From: Vicinamibacteria bacterium
GTDB taxonomy: Bacteria > Acidobacteriota > Vicinamibacteria > Fen-336
NCBI GenBank assembly: GCA_016934575.1
Contig: JAFGSN010000013.1
Span: 1 to 32,344 of the forward strand
Length of the DNA stretch: 32,344 nucleotides
Direction of reading: 5' to 3'
Below, in pieces: positions 9,271 to 26,764 of the stretch. Positions within the stretch are counted from its first letter, which is position 1. Every line of letters starts with the position of its first letter. Below the pieces are notes generated by a model. That model made no database searches and was not told the DNA's origin. It was given only the letters and a program-made list of their open reading frames with translations. The translations under genes and the position numbers were made by a program.

Positions 9271-10380
9271 TCAGCAGTTGCGCGAGAAGTCGCGAACCGC
9301 GTCAGCGACCTGTCGCGCCTGTTCGTCCGTCAGCTCGGGAAAAAGAGGAAGCGAAAGCACCTCTCGTGCCGCCTTTTCCGCGATGGGCAGCTCGCCGGCT
9401 TGTATTCCGAGAAAAGCAAATGCCGGTTGCAGGTGGAGCGGGACGGGATAGTGCACGAGAGTCTCTATGCCGCATCGACTGAGGGCCGCCGCCAACCTGT
9501 CACGACAAGGATGGCGCACGACGAACAGGTGATGAACGGCGCGGGCGTAGGGTTGCTCCTCGATCAGATCGACACCGGCGCCGTCGAGAAGGCGTCGATA
9601 AAGAGAGGCGAGCTCTCGTCGCCGTTCTGTCCAAGCGTCGAGGCGCCCGAGCTTGACGCGGAGAACGGCGGCCTGAAGCTCGTCCAAGCGACTGTTGATG
9701 CCCGCGAGCAGGTGCTGGTAGCGGCGTTCCTGTCCTCCATTGCGGAGTCGGCGTATGCGGCGTCCCACTTCCGGATCGCTGACGAGCACGGCGCCGCCGT
9801 CGCCTAGAGCGCCGAGATTCTTCGTCGGATAGAAGCTCAATGTCGCCGCGTCCGAACGCGTGCCCACGGGCGCGCCTTTATAGAGGGCGCCGTGCGCTTG
9901 ACAGGCGTCCTCGACGATGTGTAGGTTGTGTTTCCGCGCCATCCGCCAAATGGGCTCCATGTCGCACGGGTGACCATAAAGGTGAACGGGCACGAGGGCT
10001 CGCGTTCTGCTCGAAAGCGCTCGTTCCAGCGCTTCCGGCGACACGTTGAGGGTCGCCGGATCGAGATCGGCGAAAACCGGTCGTGCGCCCGCCCTTACGA
10101 TGGCCAGCGCCGTGAAAGCCGCCGTAAACGGCGACGTCACGACCTCGTCGCCGTGCTCGACACCCAACGCTTCGAGCGCCAACTGGATCGCCTCGGTGCC
10201 ATTGGCGACGGCGACGGCTTCTCTGGCGCCGAGCTGGGCGGCAAGCTCGCGTTCGAAGGTCTCGACCTCCGGTCCGAGGATATACCAGCCGGAGTCGAGG
10301 ACTCGTCGGATCGCCGAATCGATCTCCTCGCGGATCGGAGCGAGATGCGCTGCAAAGTCGTTGAAGGGGATTCTGATCAC
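9271..10380 (-). CDS. DegT/DnrJ/EryC1/StrS-family PLP-dependent sugar aminotransferase
   Basis: This 369-aa cytoplasmic enzyme belongs to the family that transaminates keto-sugars on nucleotide carriers. It has the entry motif SGWYILGPEVETFE, ANGTEAIQLAL for cofactor phosphate binding, VEDACQAHGA (Asp158, contacting the PLP ring nitrogen) and SFYPTKNLGALGDGGAV with Lys187 as the Schiff-base lysine. The active-site tail GIETLVHYPVPLHLQPAF is also typical. All key residues are intact. Its GTG start overlaps the TGA of the upstream epimerase-like gene, giving tight translational coupling. The two probably act on the same nucleotide sugar to give an amino sugar for the surrounding glycosyltransferases. 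The specific product cannot be named. Confidence 0.95.
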   Translation of the reverse strand: MIRIPFNDFAAHLAPIREEIDSAIRRVLDSGWYILGPEVETFERELAAQLGAREAVAVANGTEAIQLALEALGVEHGDEVVTSPFTAAFTALAIVRAGARPVFADLDPATLNVSPEALERALSSRTRALVPVHLYGHPCDMEPIWRMARKHNLHIVEDACQAHGALYKGAPVGTRSDAATLSFYPTKNLGALGDGGAVLVSDPEVGRRIRRLRNGGQERRYQHLLAGINSRLDELQAAVLRVKLGRLDAWTERRRELASLYRRLLDGAGVDLIEEQPYARAVHHLFVVRHPCRDRLAAALSRCGIETLVHYPVPLHLQPAFAFLGIQAGELPIAEKAAREVLSLPLFPELTDEQARQVADAVRDFSRNC

Positions 10381-18915: not shown

Positions 18916-20490
18916 ATGATGCGGACGCTCGTCGCGACGTTTCCCGTGTTGTTCGTCATCAGCATGGCGGGGGCGCGGCCCGTGACGGGGGCGCCCGCCG
19001 AGGGTCCGCCTGCGAACGAGCCGTCCGTCCCCAAACCGGGACCGATCATTCTTTTTCTGATCGACAACTCCGCTTCCTTGCCGCCGCTTGATCCGCAGGA
19101 GGGGCGGGTCGTCGCGCTTGAAAAGATGTTCACGTTCCTCGAAGGCCAGCCTTACCGCCTTGTTCTCTTCGGAGGGCGGAACGAAATCTCCGTCGACCAG
19201 CCAGCGCTCTATGACAACAAAGGCCAATGGACGGATTTTTACCACGCGTTTGTCAGAGCCCAGGAGCTCGTGAAGACCTATCCTCCGGGGACGGGTTTTC
19301 GGGTCGTGCTCCTGACGGATGGAATCCTCGATCCGAATCCACGCGACTGGCCGGAGGCGGGCGCGATCTCAAAGGAGGAACTGCGCGCACAAGTCGTGCT
19401 GAAGTTGATCGACCTGCTCGCGCAGATGGAGTTGCCGCTCTACGTCATCCTCGTCGGCGAGCCGACGTCCGACGGCGCGGCTCCCGGCGACCGCGAGCTG
19501 ACGCCGCAATTGATCTGGGACATGGTGCGTACCGCCAACGGCGTTCGAGCGTCCCCCATGGCCCAGAAGCTTTCCTCGTTCTTGAAGGACGACGGCTTGT
19601 TGTTGCGGAAGTTCATTTTTCGGATCGAGCCCGACCAGGGCTTGAATCAGGTGGAGCCCGTGGTGCGGCGCATCGTTGCGCCGCCAAGCGCTCAGGTCGA
19701 GTTGTTCTTGAGCGGTCTCGTGCTTCCGCTCGTGATGATCGCGTTGCTCCTGTTGGGCATCTCCGTGCGCTCGTTTCCCGGTCCGGGAGACGTGGAGATC
19801 GTGGAGCTGAAAACCGGTCATCCGGCGCACCTGTCCGTCGACCACATGCATCGCCTCGAGTCCGGAGGATGGGGCGTGCGCGGCCTGTTGCTCGTGGGCG
19901 ACGCGCGGAACGCCACCGCGAGCATTACCTATGTGCATCCGCCGCTTGACGTGACTGTCGCGGGCATCGACACGACCGGCCTTGATCCCCTGACGCTGAA
20001 GCTTCTTCCGATGGGCCTTGAACAACTGGAGCGCGCCCTCGAAGAATGCATGGAGCGAGGATCGAAGGACGAGAAGGTCTTCGCGCTCAACCTCGACTAC
20101 ATGGCCAAGAACTTCGATCCGGCTCTGGCGGAGCGGATCCTGACGAGCTCATCAACGGAACGCCGGCGGACGTCGCCTCTCGATTTCTTGCGCGCCAAGG
20201 CCCATCTTCTGTCGAATCCCGACTTACACAAGAGGCTTACCGAAGCGCGGTTGACGTTCAACGCATATGGGAGGGATGCCGGGCGGGCGGATCTCAAGGT
20301 TGGCGCGAAATTGCGCATCGGACCGTACGGTTTCGTCGTACGTGATATCGTCCGCGGCGGCCGAAAAGACCTGCGCGTCCACTTGCAGTATGACCGCGTG
20401 CCGTCGTTGTTTGGGCTGAAGGCGATCTTGCCGAAAGCGCTTCAACGCGTGATTCGCCTGCGCCGACGCAACGAGCGCGTTGTCAGCTAG
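18916..20490 (+). CDS. VWA-domain membrane protein
   Basis: The 524-aa protein opens with a signal-like hydrophobic segment (about 3-22). A von Willebrand factor A domain follows, with an intact metal-ion site: Asp50-x-Ser52-x-Ser54 (IDNSAS) and Thr134-Asp135 (LLTDGIL). A single transmembrane helix spans about 262-284 (VELFLSGLVLPLVMIALLLL). The remaining 240 residues are soluble, with a strand-rich part, then a helical segment rich in charged residues, and a basic C-terminus. The signal and helix place the VWA domain in the periplasm and the C-terminal half in the cytoplasm. It precedes the PilZ gene by 21 bases, so they are probably co-transcribed. Two ATG codons are adjacent; either may start. 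The ligand and role are unknown. Confidence 0.85.
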   Translation: MMRTLVATFPVLFVISMAGARPVTGAPAEGPPANEPSVPKPGPIILFLIDNSASLPPLDPQEGRVVALEKMFTFLEGQPYRLVLFGGRNEISVDQPALYDNKGQWTDFYHAFVRAQELVKTYPPGTGFRVVLLTDGILDPNPRDWPEAGAISKEELRAQVVLKLIDLLAQMELPLYVILVGEPTSDGAAPGDRELTPQLIWDMVRTANGVRASPMAQKLSSFLKDDGLLLRKFIFRIEPDQGLNQVEPVVRRIVAPPSAQVELFLSGLVLPLVMIALLLLGISVRSFPGPGDVEIVELKTGHPAHLSVDHMHRLESGGWGVRGLLLVGDARNATASITYVHPPLDVTVAGIDTTGLDPLTLKLLPMGLEQLERALEECMERGSKDEKVFALNLDYMAKNFDPALAERILTSSSTERRRTSPLDFLRAKAHLLSNPDLHKRLTEARLTFNAYGRDAGRADLKVGAKLRIGPYGFVVRDIVRGGRKDLRVHLQYDRVPSLFGLKAILPKALQRVIRLRRRNERVVS

Positions 20491-21495: not shown

Positions 21496-23505
21496 ATGAT
21501 GGTCCGGTTACCGTTTGCGCTGAGCGCCCTTCTCTTGTCTCTGTCTCCGGCGACGCGTTCGGAGAAACTGACGCGCATTCTGATCTTGGAGGAGAGCCGT
21601 GCGGATGATGCCGGCGAACTGGCGCGATATTTGACGGATTCCGACGCGGGCGTCCGCCGGCGAGCGGCATTGGCGGCGGGACGAGCCGGAAATTCCGGTC
21701 TCATGACGGCCCTGTTTGGAATGCTCAACGACCGAAAGGTGGAGATGCGGAGGATGGCGGTTTTCTCCCTCGGTCTTCTGGGTGAACGAGACGCCGAGCA
21801 GCGCTTGAGCATGGCGCTGAACGACGGCGATCCCATCGTGCGTGGGCGCGCCGCGGAAGCGTTGGCGCGTCTCGGTGCACGGTCGCAAGCGGTCGAGATC
21901 GCGAACATGGTTCTGAAAGCGTTGCCCGAAGGAGCGCCGAAGGTGACCGTGCGCGGAGATGATCCTGGAAATCCCGAAGATCCCTGGATCGAGCTCCGTC
22001 TCGGTCTTTTCGCTCTGGCGCACCTGGGCGATGTCAATGCCGCCGAAGGCGTTCTTCTGAAAGACGGGGAGCCGCGCTTCGATTGGTGGGCGGCGACATA
22101 TGCCGCGTCTCGGATCGCTTCCCCGTCCCTCAAACCGTTCTTGACGACGGCGGCCGGGTCTTCGGATCCCATGTCACGCTTTTATGCGGCGCGCGGTCTG
22201 GGAACGCTCGCTGATCCGTCCACGCTGGTTCAGATTGAATCTCTGATCGGGGATCGGAACGGGAGCGTTGTCGTGCAGGCCTTGCGAGCACTGTCGCGAT
22301 TTCCCGGCGAGCGCTCCGTCGCCGTAGCCGAAGAGGCGCTGGAGTCGTCCGATCCGGGGATCATCGAGGCAGCGCTCACCGCGCTCGCGCGGCTGCCGAC
22401 GCCTTCTGGAATGCTGGCGCGGATCGTTGCGCGGGTCGGCCATGCCGATCCGGGAATCCGCGCGGCCGCGCTCCGGGCGCTGGCCCATACGGATCGGGAA
22501 CGGTTGGCCCTGGTTCTCTCCGGACTCGACCCGGATCCTGCATGGAGCGTTCATGACGCGCTCGCGGAGGCTCTGGGCGATATAGGAGACGAGATGTCGC
22601 TCGGCATCCTGCATGCGATGCTGGCGGACTCGGAACCGTATGCGTTGCCCGCGATCCTCGGCGCGCTCGCGCGCGCCGAGGGACGCAACGCGAGCGTGAT
22701 TTTAAGACGATACGTCGATCATCCCGATTTCGCCGTGCGCGCGGCCGCGGTTCATGGCCTGGCTCGGGTCGGCGATTCGCGGGACAACGACGCCTTGCGC
22801 TCCTCCTATGAGCGCGCGCTGGGAGACGTTGAACCCGACGCGCGCCTGGCGGCGCTTTCCGCCATCGGTGAGCGATATGACGCGGCCGGAGAAGAAGTGT
22901 TGCGAAATGCTTTTCGGAGCGATCCGACCCAGGGCGTCCGACTGCACGCCGGACAAATCCTCGCGGAAAAGGGGCAAGGCGGACCACGAGTCGCTTTCTC
23001 CGGGAGCATTCATCCCCACCTTGATTATCGCATTTGGATGGCGCCTTACATGCCGCGGCCGGAGACGCCTCTTTATACGCCTCGTGCTCTGATTCACACG
23101 CGCAAGGGAGTGATCGAGATTCATCTCAATATTCTGGAGGCGCCGCTGGCGTGCGCGTCGTTCGTCCGTCTGGCGCGGCGCGGCTTTTACAACGATCTCG
23201 TGTTCGATACGGTCATTTCAGGCGAGATCGTTTTCTCTGGCTGCCCGCGGGGAGACGGACGCGGCGGCGCCGGCGTCGTGCTTCCATCCGAACCTGGGCT
23301 GCGTCCTTTCGGACGCGGCGCCATGGGACTCGCGGAAGCTCAACGCGACATGGGCGGCAGCCGTTTCTTTATCACGTTGACTCCCATGCCGGAAAGGGAC
23401 GGCCGGAACACGCTCATGGGTTGGGTGGCGGACGGCGTCGAGACCGTCGAAAAAATTCGTCCCGGCGACAAAATTAGTTGGATCGAAGTCTGGGACGGTC
23501 GATAG
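21496..23505 (+). CDS. HEAT-repeat protein fused to a cyclophilin-like domain
   Basis: The 669-aa protein starts with a probable signal peptide (MMVRLPFALSALLLSLSPATRS) and so is likely periplasmic. Residues about 35-500 are a solenoid of HEAT-like repeats, with recurring patterns such as VRRRAALAAGRAG, VRGRAAEALARLG and IRAAALRALAH. The last 145 residues (from about 525) form a cyclophilin-type peptidyl-prolyl isomerase domain: IHTRKGVIEIHL, FVRLARRGFYNDLVF, GAMGLAEAQRDMGGSRFFITL and LMGWVADGVETVEKI. The catalytic FHR motif is FDT here (Thr572), and the QGGD loop is altered to SGCPRGDG. It may therefore bind proline peptides or act as scaffold only. GGGAGG precedes the ATG. A strong hairpin follows the stop. 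Confidence 0.9.
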   Translation: MMVRLPFALSALLLSLSPATRSEKLTRILILEESRADDAGELARYLTDSDAGVRRRAALAAGRAGNSGLMTALFGMLNDRKVEMRRMAVFSLGLLGERDAEQRLSMALNDGDPIVRGRAAEALARLGARSQAVEIANMVLKALPEGAPKVTVRGDDPGNPEDPWIELRLGLFALAHLGDVNAAEGVLLKDGEPRFDWWAATYAASRIASPSLKPFLTTAAGSSDPMSRFYAARGLGTLADPSTLVQIESLIGDRNGSVVVQALRALSRFPGERSVAVAEEALESSDPGIIEAALTALARLPTPSGMLARIVARVGHADPGIRAAALRALAHTDRERLALVLSGLDPDPAWSVHDALAEALGDIGDEMSLGILHAMLADSEPYALPAILGALARAEGRNASVILRRYVDHPDFAVRAAAVHGLARVGDSRDNDALRSSYERALGDVEPDARLAALSAIGERYDAAGEEVLRNAFRSDPTQGVRLHAGQILAEKGQGGPRVAFSGSIHPHLDYRIWMAPYMPRPETPLYTPRALIHTRKGVIEIHLNILEAPLACASFVRLARRGFYNDLVFDTVISGEIVFSGCPRGDGRGGAGVVLPSEPGLRPFGRGAMGLAEAQRDMGGSRFFITLTPMPERDGRNTLMGWVADGVETVEKIRPGDKISWIEVWDGR

Positions 23506-23510
23506 AATAG

Positions 23511-23540
23511 GAAAAGGGGGCGATGTGTCACCCCCTTTTC
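23511..23540. terminator. Bidirectional intrinsic-terminator-like hairpin
   Basis: GAAAAGGGGG, ten loop bases and CCCCCTTTTC form a perfect 10-bp stem. The stem begins 5 bases after the HEAT/cyclophilin stop and lies 25 bases beyond the convergent 24-codon micro-ORF. Read in either direction the stem ends in TTTTC, so it can end both transcripts. Confidence 0.8.
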
Positions 23541-23565: not shown

Positions 23566-23640
23566 CTACTTTTTCTGGGCCTTCTTCTTCGGTGCGGCTT
23601 TCTTCGTCGCCTTCTTGGCTACTTTTTTCTTCGCTGGCAT
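23566..23640 (-). CDS. Lys/Ala-rich micro-ORF, 24 aa (histone H1 tail-like)
   Basis: The ORF starts MPAKKKVAKKATKK and ends PKKKAQKK. Twelve of its 24 residues are lysine and most others are Ala, Thr or Pro. The composition resembles the basic tails of histone H1-like bacterial proteins (HC1/AlgP type), but it lacks any folded part. A purine-rich AAAGGGGG lies 10 bases before the ATG, within an 18-base block also found before the neighbouring 17-codon ORF. In frame, an earlier ATG at the 23718-23752 hairpin would extend it to 57 aa. The shared leader sits in different frames in the two genes, which argues for the short start. A hairpin terminator follows the stop. Nucleic-acid binding is a guess from charge. 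Confidence 0.6.
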   Translation of the reverse strand: MPAKKKVAKKATKKAAPKKKAQKK

Positions 23641-23646
23641 TGTTTT

Positions 23647-23664
23647 CTGTCCCCCTTTCGGTCT
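23647..23664 (-). promoter_or_regulatory. Ribosome-binding-site block of the 24-aa micro-ORF
   Basis: Minus-strand agaccgaaagggggACAG matches the block before the 17-aa ORF at 17 of 18 bases. AAAGGGGG is a near-consensus Shine-Dalgarno with 10 bases to the ATG. Confidence 0.6.
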
Positions 23665-23717
23665 GGAAACGGATTGAATCTGTTGAATGCGATCTTGAGC
23701 CGCTATCCAGGGCCATG

Positions 23718-23752
23718 CCGGGAAGGAGGCGATACGCATTCCCCCTTCCCGG
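23718..23752 (-). terminator. Hairpin between the two micro-ORFs
   Basis: A 12-bp GC-rich inverted repeat with one mismatch and an 11-base loop follows the stop of the 17-aa ORF. There is no strong T-run, so it may attenuate or stabilise the transcript and not fully end it. I see no convincing separate promoter for the 24-aa ORF downstream. Confidence 0.45.
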
Positions 23753-23770
23753 TGGCTGCCGTGATCGCGA

Positions 23771-23824
23771 CTACTTCTTCTTCTTTTTCGCGGTCTTCTT
23801 GGCGGCCTTCTTCTTTGCGGGCAT
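23771..23824 (-). CDS. Lys/Ala-rich micro-ORF, 17 aa
   Basis: The product reads MPAKKKAAKKTAKKKKK: ten lysines in 17 residues and no acidic residue. It shares its first six residues, its composition and its 18-base leader with the 24-aa ORF downstream, so the two look like a tandem duplication that has diverged in length. AAAGGGGG lies 8 bases before the ATG. A consensus-like sigma-70 promoter and a leader hairpin lie just upstream, which supports real expression. An in-frame GTG 36 bases upstream is possible but would bury the ribosome-binding site in coding sequence. The function is unknown. The basic charge suggests binding to DNA, RNA or polyphosphate. A non-coding RNA that only happens to carry this frame is the alternative. 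Confidence 0.55.
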   Translation of the reverse strand: MPAKKKAAKKTAKKKKK

Positions 23825-23828
23825 CGTA

Positions 23829-23846
23829 CTGACCCCCTTTCGGTCT
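23829..23846 (-). promoter_or_regulatory. Ribosome-binding-site block of the 17-aa micro-ORF
   Basis: Minus-strand agaccgaaagggggTCAG repeats the block before the 24-aa ORF, differing at one base. Here GGGGG is 8 bases from the ATG, against 10 in the other copy. Confidence 0.6.
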
Positions 23847-23849
23847 ATA

Positions 23850-23889
23850 CCACTTGTCACCCTGAATCAACATCTCGGGGCACAAGTGG
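23850..23889 (-). promoter_or_regulatory. Leader inverted repeat upstream of the micro-ORFs
   Basis: CCACTTGT and ACAAGTGG form a perfect 8-bp inverted repeat with a 24-base spacer. It lies inside the predicted 5' leader (start near 23900), just before the ribosome-binding block, so it may shape leader RNA or bind a regulator. Confidence 0.45.
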
Positions 23890-23904
23890 TTTCGCATACT
23901 ATGG

Positions 23905-23971
23905 GTAGGGTATGGATCAGCGATCGGGTTGTCAAGGATTTTCTTGACGACGGAGTTCCTCCATACCCTAC
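23905..23971. repeat. Nested palindrome overlapping the micro-ORF promoter
   Basis: Outer arms GTAGGGTATGG (23905-23915) and CCATACCCTAC (23961-23971) are a perfect 11-bp inverted repeat. Inner arms GTCAAG (23931-23936) and CTTGAC (23943-23948) are a perfect 6-bp pair with almost the same centre. The arms contain both promoter hexamers, so this may be an operator or a structured RNA. Confidence 0.7.
23907..23935 (-). promoter_or_regulatory. Sigma-70-type promoter for the micro-ORFs
   Basis: On the minus strand a perfect TTGACA (23935-23930) is followed after 17 bases by TACCCT (23912-23907). Transcription would begin near 23900 and give a leader of about 75 bases before the 17-aa ORF. Both hexamers lie in the arms of the nested palindrome. 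Confidence 0.65.
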
Positions 23972-23983
23972 TGAGTCGGGGAG

Positions 23984-24121
23984 TTAGCTTGTGGAAGATG
24001 CGCCGGAATTCGTTGAAAGACGCTCCAGGAGCCAGTTCCAGAGAACTTGTCGCTCCAACCGACTGAAGTTTTTAGGCTTCCGTGAATCGATGCGCCGTCG
24101 TTGCTGAAAAGTCGCCGGCAT
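23984..24121 (-). CDS. Candidate small protein, 45 aa, unknown
   Basis: An ATG-started frame of 45 codons fills the gap between the TPR gene and the micro-ORF promoter. The product has a strongly basic N-terminus (QQRRRIDSRKPKN), a likely amphipathic helix (FSRLERQVLWNWLLERLS) and a Ser/Thr-rich end. There is no Shine-Dalgarno. A TATTCT hexamer (24136-24131) sits 9 bases before the ATG, matching the spacing seen at ychF, the VWA gene, tgt and yajC. No coding homologue is recognised, and it could equally be a decayed gene end or chance. The rest of the 325-base gap holds only the promoter and repeats listed separately, plus a 6-bp inverted repeat (24126-24131 with 24150-24155) across the TPR stop. 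Confidence 0.35.
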   Translation of the reverse strand: MPATFQQRRRIDSRKPKNFSRLERQVLWNWLLERLSTNSGASSTS

Positions 24122-24149: not shown

Positions 24150-25715
24150 TTAATCGGAGTTGATATGGTTTGTTGATGGGTTGTGATCGATTGCTTGCGG
24201 CCGGTCGAGTCCGAAGGGTTGGCGTATGGCGGCAGCGGCCCGCTCATGGTAGTCGCTTCGTCCGAGCGGCTTATTGATAACGCGTTCGTAAGCGTGAATC
24301 GCGTCCTGTCGTTTGCCGGCAAGATCGTACGCATGACCGGAGAGAAGATGCGCCCATGGGCGAAGCCATGGAGGATCCAAAAGCTTCTTTCCGATCACCC
24401 GATCAATGAAGACGCGGGCTGTATTCGCGTTACGCGCCAGCAAGTCTTCCTCCGCGAGAGACAGGAGCGCTTCATCCTGTTCGGGATCGAGGGCATGGAC
24501 GCGTCGATAGAGCGCCATGCATTCCTGAAGCCGGCCGGCCTCCGCGAGCCGGCGCGCGTCTCCGATGAGATGCGCCACCTCGGTCTCGGACGAAGACAGC
24601 GGCTGGGACGACGCTTTCCGCGCCGCATCGCGGATGTTCGGATCCGGCGAAGAAGCGGCCTGTTGATAGAGCGCCATGGCCGCCTCTCGATCGCCTTCGA
24701 TTTCAAGGCAACGGCCCAACAGAAGCTGCGATCTCGAGCGCAGGACCGGCCGGTCCGCGAATGACGTCCGCAGCTCTTCCAGGGACTGTCTGGCCTCTCC
24801 GAAGCGATGATCACGCAGAAACGCTTCGCTCATCGAAAGACGGGCCATCTCGGCGACGATGGGCGCGTAATTGACATGGCCGCCGACGACGGACGCGATG
24901 ATTTCTCGGGAAACGCTCACGCTGTCGGCATAGCGGCCGAGCTGATCGCGAAGAAGCGCTGCCAGTTTGAGCCCCCATAAAGGCGCGCCGGGGTAACGAC
25001 GACGCAGAGCGAGAAGCTCGACGTGCGCGCGATCGAGCGCGTCCTCGTACTCGGCATAGATCTCGTAAAGCTGCACCTGCGCTTCGGTGCGATGGAAGTC
25101 GGATTCCTGGCGTGCGCGCTTGATCAACAGCAGCCCGCGTTCTCTGTCGCCTCCCGGCATGCCCGCAAGAAATCGGAGGAGCTTGAGGATCCGAGGGAGC
25201 ACGTCGGCATAGTAGTCATAGAGCCCTAGGCCGAAGCAGGCTTCGCTATTTTCGGGATCAAGCGCGCGCACGCGCATGAGCTCAGCGCGCATCTGTATCG
25301 CGTCGCGCCTGGCGTCGCCGTTATTGAAACGAAAGAGATGGAAACGACTGCGGACGCCGAAAGCGCCGGCGCGTCCGAGGTGAGCGCGCGCGTCGGCCGG
25401 ATCGGCGCGCAGGAGACGTTCCGTCAATTCGAGGCCGCGATCGACTTGAGCGAGCAGGCGTGAGTCGAGGCGCGTGCTGCGCGGGTTCTGTTCGATCTTC
25501 CAGCAGAGCGCCAGGCTTTCGAAGTATGGTCCCGCGGGGTCGTCGGGGTGCTCGGCGGAAAGCCGCGCCAGCCGCGCGATCGCCGTGTTCGTGCTGCCGT
25601 CATACAGAGATTCCAGCGCCCGCACGTATTCCGAATCATGAGGCTGCCTGTAACTGGAAACGGGTTCCAAGGCGATGAGGCCGGCCAGCAGCGCGCTTGT
25701 TAAGGATGATGACAT
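24150..25715 (-). CDS. TPR-repeat protein, probably exported
   Basis: The 521-aa protein begins MSSSLTSALLAGLIALEPVSS, a weak signal peptide lacking basic residues at the start. The rest is helical with tetratricopeptide-like repeats, for example around 34-63, 95-125 and in the last 150 residues (CMALYRRVHALDPEQDEALL, AIHAYERVINKPLG). A distinctive segment at 162-195 (GLGLYDYYADVLPR, then LKLLRFLAGMPGGDRERGL) looks like the core of a conserved family that resembles eukaryotic Iml2/DUF3808. That match is from memory. The ATG at 25715 overlaps the end of ddl by 16 bases, so it is translationally coupled to D-Ala-D-Ala ligase. A longer frame reaching into ddl reads low-complexity Arg-rich sequence and was not used. 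The partner is unknown. Confidence 0.85.
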   Translation of the reverse strand: MSSSLTSALLAGLIALEPVSSYRQPHDSEYVRALESLYDGSTNTAIARLARLSAEHPDDPAGPYFESLALCWKIEQNPRSTRLDSRLLAQVDRGLELTERLLRADPADARAHLGRAGAFGVRSRFHLFRFNNGDARRDAIQMRAELMRVRALDPENSEACFGLGLYDYYADVLPRILKLLRFLAGMPGGDRERGLLLIKRARQESDFHRTEAQVQLYEIYAEYEDALDRAHVELLALRRRYPGAPLWGLKLAALLRDQLGRYADSVSVSREIIASVVGGHVNYAPIVAEMARLSMSEAFLRDHRFGEARQSLEELRTSFADRPVLRSRSQLLLGRCLEIEGDREAAMALYQQAASSPDPNIRDAARKASSQPLSSSETEVAHLIGDARRLAEAGRLQECMALYRRVHALDPEQDEALLSLAEEDLLARNANTARVFIDRVIGKKLLDPPWLRPWAHLLSGHAYDLAGKRQDAIHAYERVINKPLGRSDYHERAAAAIRQPFGLDRPQAIDHNPSTNHINSD

Positions 25716-26764
25716 GAGAGACGGCGTCTTTGATCGTCGTGCCGGTTCCGTCCAAGATCGATCAGGCGGTCGAGCAGGTCGACATAGGCCAAGCCGGCGG
25801 CTTCCCACAATTTCGGAAACATGCTGATCGACGTGAAGCCCGGGATGGTGTTGATCTCGTTGACGAGGAGACGGCCGCTTCCGCGATCGAGAAATAGGTC
25901 CACGCGCGCGTATCCCGCCGCGTCGACGGCGCGGAAGGCGCGAACGGCCAGCGCGCGCGCCTCTTCGGCGTGCCGAGAGCACAAAGCGGCCGGAATCAGG
26001 AGCTGGGTTCGACTGTCGTCCGAATACTTCGATTCATAATCGTAGAACTCGCGATCCGGCACGACCTCGCCGGGAAGAGCCGCCGCGGGCTCTTCGTCGC
26101 CCAAGACCGAGACTTCGATCTCTCGGGCGTTGATCGCCGCTTCCACGACGACCTTCTTGTCATACTTGAAGGCGATATCGAGAGCGGCCGCGAACGCGTC
26201 AGGCGTCTTGACCTTGGAGATTCCCACGCTTGATCCGAGATTCGCCGGTTTTACGAAAAGAGGCAATCCCAGGGCATCGAGAATGACCGCCTCCTCCTCG
26301 GGGTCGTGCCACCGTAATGCGCGATAAGGTCCAAGCGGCAGTCCGGCCTGGGCGAAGACCGATTTCGACAGTTGCTTGTCCATGCCCAAGGCCGAAGCCG
26401 TCACACCCGAACCGACATAGGGCACGTCGGCCAGTTCGAGCAGTCCTTGAATCGTCCCGTCTTCGCCAAACGTGCCATGGAACAGCGGGAAATAAACGTC
26501 GGGTCTGCAGACTACGGACGCGTCGTCCATGGCTCGTAATCTACCGCCGTCAGGTCCAGGGACGAGATAGACCGCTTGGCCGCCGGAGGATGGAGCGCCG
26601 GGGCTGTCCTGAAGCGACCAGCGACCCTGACGGTCGACGTACACGAGCACGACGTCGTATCGCGCGGCCAGCGCAGCGCTCACGGAATCGGCGGAGCGGA
26701 GACTGACCGCGTGCTCGCTTGAGCGGCCGCCGTAGAGAAGCGCGACTTTGAGACGTTGAGCCAC
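25700..26764 (-). CDS. ddl: D-alanine--D-alanine ligase
   Basis: Ddl joins two D-alanines with ATP for peptidoglycan precursors in the cytoplasm. The 354-aa protein has the N-terminal GGRSSEHAVSL motif with the conserved Glu, the ATP-grasp core LGLPLFVKPANLGSSVGISK, and VNEINTIPGFTSISMFPKLWEAAG at the C-terminus. The Tyr of FYDYESKYSDD is kept, as in true D-Ala-D-Ala ligases; D-Ala-D-Lac enzymes differ there. The last 20 residues are basic and run past the usual end. The start is GTG. Upstream, TAGACT lies 10 bases before it, a marginal case of the start-proximal promoter pattern. The 107-base gap to the divergent tgt gene holds both promoters. Confidence 0.96.
   Translation of the reverse strand: MAQRLKVALLYGGRSSEHAVSLRSADSVSAALAARYDVVLVYVDRQGRWSLQDSPGAPSSGGQAVYLVPGPDGGRLRAMDDASVVCRPDVYFPLFHGTFGEDGTIQGLLELADVPYVGSGVTASALGMDKQLSKSVFAQAGLPLGPYRALRWHDPEEEAVILDALGLPLFVKPANLGSSVGISKVKTPDAFAAALDIAFKYDKKVVVEAAINAREIEVSVLGDEEPAAALPGEVVPDREFYDYESKYSDDSRTQLLIPAALCSRHAEEARALAVRAFRAVDAAGYARVDLFLDRGSGRLLVNEINTIPGFTSISMFPKLWEAAGLAYVDLLDRLIDLGRNRHDDQRRRLSCHHP

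Follow-up and report, generated by a model that had tools for sequence, protein, structure and literature searches.

The 32,344-nucleotide stretch of DNA analysed here (the window) is from Vicinamibacteria (Acidobacteriota), and carries on its minus strand a tandem pair of very short, lysine-rich open reading frames. Comparison with related genomes establishes that these micro-ORFs are real genes, kept under selection across the class. The reading proposed, which we consider evenly balanced between right and wrong, is of an undescribed microprotein family, with its own strong promoter, unusually strong Shine-Dalgarno sites, and hairpin terminators, whose products would serve as free polycations. 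Conservation, coding, the anatomy of the transcription unit, selection on the peptide, and duplication can all be read from the sequence.

Micro-ORF 1 (MPAKKKAAKKTAKKKKK; 23771..23824, minus strand) has 17 codons, 10 of them for lysine, and orthologues lie at the same position family-wide. Micro-ORF 2 (MPAKKKVAKKATKKAAPKKKAQKK; 23566..23640, minus strand) has 24 codons, 12 of them for lysine. Read on the minus strand both start MPAKKK, as the original prediction had it, and each has AGACCGAAAGGGGGNCAG upstream and a hairpin downstream. The peptides carry a charge of about +10 to +12 and no hydrophobic signal. The convergent neighbour, a gene for HEAT repeats plus a cyclophilin-type peptidyl-prolyl isomerase (21496..23505, plus strand), provides a syntenic landmark. 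Upstream are genes for a TPR protein (24150..25982, minus strand; the true start may fall inside the listed ORF), D-Ala-D-Ala ligase, and tgt. The source genome comprises 3.98 Mb in 247 contigs. A tRNA and tmRNA search found none. Elsewhere in the window, a 524-residue ORF (18916-20490, plus strand) has no Pfam match at E values up to 1.

Each micro-ORF follows an 18-base block, AGACCGAAAGGGGG[T/A]CAG, and the two copies differ at one base: block 1, AGACCGAAAGGGGGTCAG (23829..23846, minus strand), and block 2, AGACCGAAAGGGGGACAG (23647..23664, minus strand). From the end of AAAGGGGG to the ATG there are 8 bases for micro-ORF 1 and 10 for micro-ORF 2. The element CCGAAAGGGGG occurs three times genome-wide, two of them at this locus. 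The blocks had been taken for a ribosome-binding site and not for coding sequence, and this is what they are, as judged from pairing and frame. The leader GAAAGGGGGGAT complements the 3′ end of 16S rRNA, the duplex containing a single G-U pair and a single bulge, and its spacing from the start codon suits a Shine-Dalgarno site. Duplex energies are −15.9 kcal/mol for block 1 and −14.7 kcal/mol for block 2; the window and its relatives together span 9-12 paired bases and −14.7 to −16.7 kcal/mol, with a leader value of about −16.5 kcal/mol to set against −9.2 for AGGAGG. Moreover, across 88 loci the block occupies all three frames relative to the ATG. (The assembly of the window's genome contains no 16S gene of its own, and most of the genomes examined have none that is readable; the sequence GGATCACCTCCTTTCT was read in G014 and G016, of the same order, and also in the class genome G097 and two Verrucomicrobia.) An altered anti-Shine-Dalgarno sequence in the class, matching the G run, was considered and rejected: G014, G016, and G097 all have the canonical sequence at the 3′ end of 16S rRNA.

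Duplication of the leader holds in the window, and fails as a general rule. Outside the window's family, copy 1 usually sits behind plain AGGAGG, and the G-run block precedes only copy 2; loci lacking the G run have GAAAGGAGGG or AAGGAGG in its place. Nor does the 12-mer mark a wider regulon, a candidate rejected on finding 0-5 sites per genome, often just at the micro-ORF locus. The sole other exact site in the source genome lies within another reading frame, one resembling groES.

Upstream of the first ORF is a promoter of strict design. The −35 hexamer TTGACA (23930..23935, minus strand) is identical in 17/17 loci from the window's family and its sister family, as is the 17-bp spacing, and the −10-like hexamer TACCCT (23907..23912, minus strand) reads TACCCT or TACGCT in all 17, giving TTGACA-N17-TACSCT throughout. 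An A tract lies further upstream in most of these loci. Because TACCCT departs from TATAAT, a generic promoter scan misses it. The family conserves another block some 50 bases 5′ of the −35 hexamer, TCCACAGGCTAAG (in the window TCCACAAGCTAA, ~23982-23998, minus strand), which in some species has a partner TGTGG further on; the block may be a regulator site.

Near the inferred transcript start, the 5′ UTR forms a hairpin (23849..23890, minus strand; z −3.35) whose loop includes a conserved ATGTT. Its arms covary: arms from the same species pair at a mean of −15.3 kcal/mol, versus −12.2 for arms combined between species (p 5e-5). A second, small hairpin directly 5′ of the leader, GTCCA/TGGAC (GCCCA/TGGGC in one genus), is present in most of the window's family and absent from the window. 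An RNAalifold model, in which a 5′ arm CCCCTT sequesters the leader, was rejected since its own pairing (−9.34) is no better than cross-species pairing (−9.48; p 0.74); the local 5′ hairpin is preferred.

The hairpins noted earlier after each stop codon are both present. That following micro-ORF 1 (23718..23752, minus strand) has a 12-bp stem, CCGGGAAGGGGG/CCUCCUUCCCGG, in a stretch that folds at −43 kcal/mol (z −4.1); the terminator-like hairpin following micro-ORF 2 (23511..23540, minus strand) lies in a stretch that folds at −28.6 kcal/mol (z −3.3). Within the window only the latter passes a terminator scan, and its T run is poor. Across the sample, a terminator-like hairpin stands 3′ of 80/88 ORFs, compared with 8.6% of shuffles.

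A short ORF rich in one residue and followed by a terminator hairpin is also the layout of an amino-acid leader peptide, and the pair might accordingly be read as a lysine attenuator, in which lysine codons and terminator control a downstream gene. Attenuators, however, need a downstream gene on the same strand, and there is none in the window or in the class relatives: the next gene is convergent, leaving nothing to control. In addition, the second ORF is simply another copy with its own ribosome-binding site. Gene order thus contradicts this explanation, which we regard as very improbable.

The locus is widespread. The HEAT/cyclophilin match was found in 60/60 genomes in the search of relatives, a set that contains the window's own genome, and in most of these the lysine-rich micro-ORFs are convergent with that gene. 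Among 58 class genomes with a micro-ORF, a pair is present in 33 and a lone copy in 25, counts that come from loci spanning 1-2 kb, include several genomes selected by pattern, and may take some missed pairs for singles. In one genus (g4; G003 and G010) the second ORF has been lost and its terminator kept. No such ORF was seen near the HEAT gene in family f3 and in one genome of family f8, so the gene is not needed everywhere.

A strict pattern for leader plus ORF (GAARGGGGGGAT, 2-10 bases, ATG, then codons of the Ala/Pro, Lys/Ala, and Lys types) matched 90 of 193 class genomes, once in each, and a reversed control pattern gave 0 matches in the same 193. The figure of 90 is an undercount, as the window itself, with G5 and not G6, escapes the pattern. 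A wider sample of the phylum added one matching genome from outside the class, carrying MAAKKKAAKKKATKKKK. Scanning named genomes for GGGGGGAT ahead of a start of this type then extended the range, yielding at least 55 short lysine-rich ORFs (a few of them duplicates). Among the matches listed, GARR lies directly 5′ of the G run for 53/55 lysine-rich ORFs versus 3/65 other matches. Besides Acidobacteria, the matches listed include Chthoniobacterales/Spartobacteria and metagenome-assembled genomes titled Elusimicrobia and Spirochaetia, these names being record titles, some of them plainly wrong. The locus also occurs in records titled Cyanobacteria, Woeseiaceae, Acidimicrobiia, and Bifidobacterium breve (L094, L095, L127, and L149); the first three titles look wrong, and those records match contigs of class genomes. 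In the Chthoniobacterales/Spartobacteria the gene has a coaBC-like gene on its upstream side and an inositol-monophosphatase-like gene on its downstream side, as read off translations. An even sample of 288 genomes from the phylum of one Verrucomicrobia match yielded just 2 matches; either few lineages there carry the gene, or its leader differs.

Evidence for coding comes from the pattern of change. The original prediction set out beforehand which signs would speak against real ORFs, and these were not seen in the relatives: reading frames are uninterrupted, length changes come in whole codons, and most substitutions are synonymous. Comparing ORFs that match in length and differ little gives 114, 169, and 914 changes at codon positions 1, 2, and 3; the same comparisons, whose pairs are not independent, give 782 synonymous and 232 non-synonymous codon differences. 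Short low-complexity ORFs frequently arise by chance, which is the case for dismissing the pair as random ORFs or a simple-repeat artefact. This explanation is refuted by the 90/193 conservation, the 17/17 promoter, the codon evidence, and the 80/88 hairpins together, and its probability is close to nil.

The tandem copies are the most telling. In 23 class genomes, from families other than the window's, the two peptides of a genome share 91% amino acid identity, versus 69% for copy 1 against copy 2 across genomes (0/20000 permutations reach this value). Fourteen equal-length tandem pairs differ at 82 synonymous and 21 non-synonymous codons, 14 of the 21 from one genome. Nine pairs (G039, G044, G053, G058, G059, G060, G061, G069, and G070) encode identical peptides despite 4-8 synonymous differences. 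Because the copies diverge synonymously while the peptide is kept, the peptide is the selected product. In the 23 genomes, the peptides are near-identical and the leaders distinct (AGGAGG before copy 1, GAAGGGGGGGAT before copy 2). On this comparative evidence, the copies undergo concerted evolution that is confined to about 50 bases of coding sequence.

The same pattern bears on the idea that the locus specifies a small regulatory RNA, with the ORF secondary (a dual-function RNA). The unit is short, its 5′ end is structured and conserved, and it has a G-rich block and a terminator, all of which would suit such an RNA. The ORF differences, however, are mostly synonymous, and tandem DNA that diverges around a constant peptide is the reverse of RNA-only selection; moreover, Rfam searches (of the window, of the locus at a permissive threshold, and of eight relatives) found nothing relevant. 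A regulatory RNA is therefore distinctly improbable.

What does the peptide do? Across 136 distinct ORF-plus-leader records its composition is 54% lysine and 29% alanine, and its length is mostly 14-27 residues, with outliers of 65 residues (G026) and no fewer than 57 (G012). No family in Pfam or NCBIfam reached its cut-off for members of at least 20 residues, such models being weak for peptides so short. For a 45-residue Chthoniobacter member the best model was hist_H1_lk_Burk (E 0.37; 11 bits against a cut-off of 80). Neither phmmer nor a profile matched any PDB chain, ribosomal proteins included, up to E 10, and literature searches for this microprotein family returned nothing. Hence no family or structure match in Pfam, NCBIfam, PDB, or Rfam backs any function. 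A 127-residue protein encoded in the same genome (G000:C208, ~9721-10104) joins an acidic amino-terminal part to a Lys/Ala/Val histone-H1-like tail; ordinary H1-like proteins thus coexist with the micro-ORFs.

The product is probably abundant. Made in large amounts, this polycation would stay unattached and disordered in the cytoplasm, and might bind through its charge to polyphosphate or to nucleic acid, whether nucleoid DNA or rRNA, much as the lysine-rich tail of histone H1 or AlgP does when it forms part of a larger protein; a second, tandem copy would increase the dose. That the peptide is a polycation acting on nucleic acid or polyphosphate has a probability of about one half. Peptides of KPAA repeats bind DNA in vitro (PMC9239181). 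Tolerance of lengths from 14 to over 60 residues is expected if charge, not fold, matters. Counting against this reading is the retention of the exact sequence in both copies, a degree of specificity that charge alone would not demand.

Polyphosphate, in granules or coacervates, might be the main ligand in place of nucleic acid. It is the obvious polyanion for a lysine-rich peptide, and AlgP localises to polyphosphate granules, whose spacing needs its KPAA tail (PMC9239181). However, the neighbourhood of the micro-ORFs shows no link to polyphosphate genes, and composition cannot separate polyphosphate binding from that of DNA or RNA. Mainly polyphosphate binding appears improbable.

The chief rival to the free polycation would make the peptide a small protein of the ribosome, or a factor bound to it, not described before. 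It had been thought that no comparable free peptide was known, a view that does not hold: PDB chains of comparable size and charge class include eL41 (25 residues) and mycobacterial bL37 (24 residues), and Borrelia bS22, missed by annotation, is 61% Lys/Arg (PMC10618245). Very strong expression signals, class-wide presence, and the exact peptide retained in both copies would all fit a ribosomal component. Against this are the lack of any single-sequence or profile match to PDB chains, ribosomal proteins among them; the length range, 14-27 within the class and 65 in one genome; the sequence itself, a simple K/A/G repeat and so unlike that of a ribosomal protein seated in a pocket; and neighbouring genes that are not ribosomal. 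A ribosomal role is a possibility to be taken seriously, albeit an unlikely one.

Taken more broadly, it is somewhat more probable than otherwise that this is a new gene family encoding nothing but a free-standing peptide of about 15-25 residues that resembles a histone tail, found in Vicinamibacteria and shared, together with its leader, by Chthoniobacterales and scattered phyla, and acting either as a micro-histone that compacts the nucleoid or as a new ribosomal protein. Such genes fall below the usual length limits of gene calling, BLAST masks them as low complexity, and trypsin shreds the peptides, so a probably well-expressed, class-conserved protein could have escaped notice. If it coats DNA, it would be among the smallest free histone-like proteins; if it resides in the ribosome, it would be a missing ribosomal protein of whole lineages.

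Two known groups of proteins come close to the family. The ribosomal proteins bS22, bL37, and eL41 are likewise free, about 24-30 residues long, very rich in Lys/Arg, and easily overlooked by annotation. Those proteins, however, are Arg-rich, with a specific sequence and ribosome position, whereas the micro-ORF peptides have no detectable similarity to them. With the histone H1-like tails of bacteria (AlgP, PhaF, and the Hc1/Hc2 type) the peptides share Lys/Ala-rich low complexity, expected disorder, and polycationic character. As H1-like DNA-binding proteins they would qualify by a Lys/Ala(/Pro)-rich polycationic composition, though not by a match to a curated family model. The chief difference is one of architecture: in AlgP the tail is carried on a larger protein with a structured amino-terminal domain, whereas the micro-ORFs encode the tail alone, with its own promoter and terminator.
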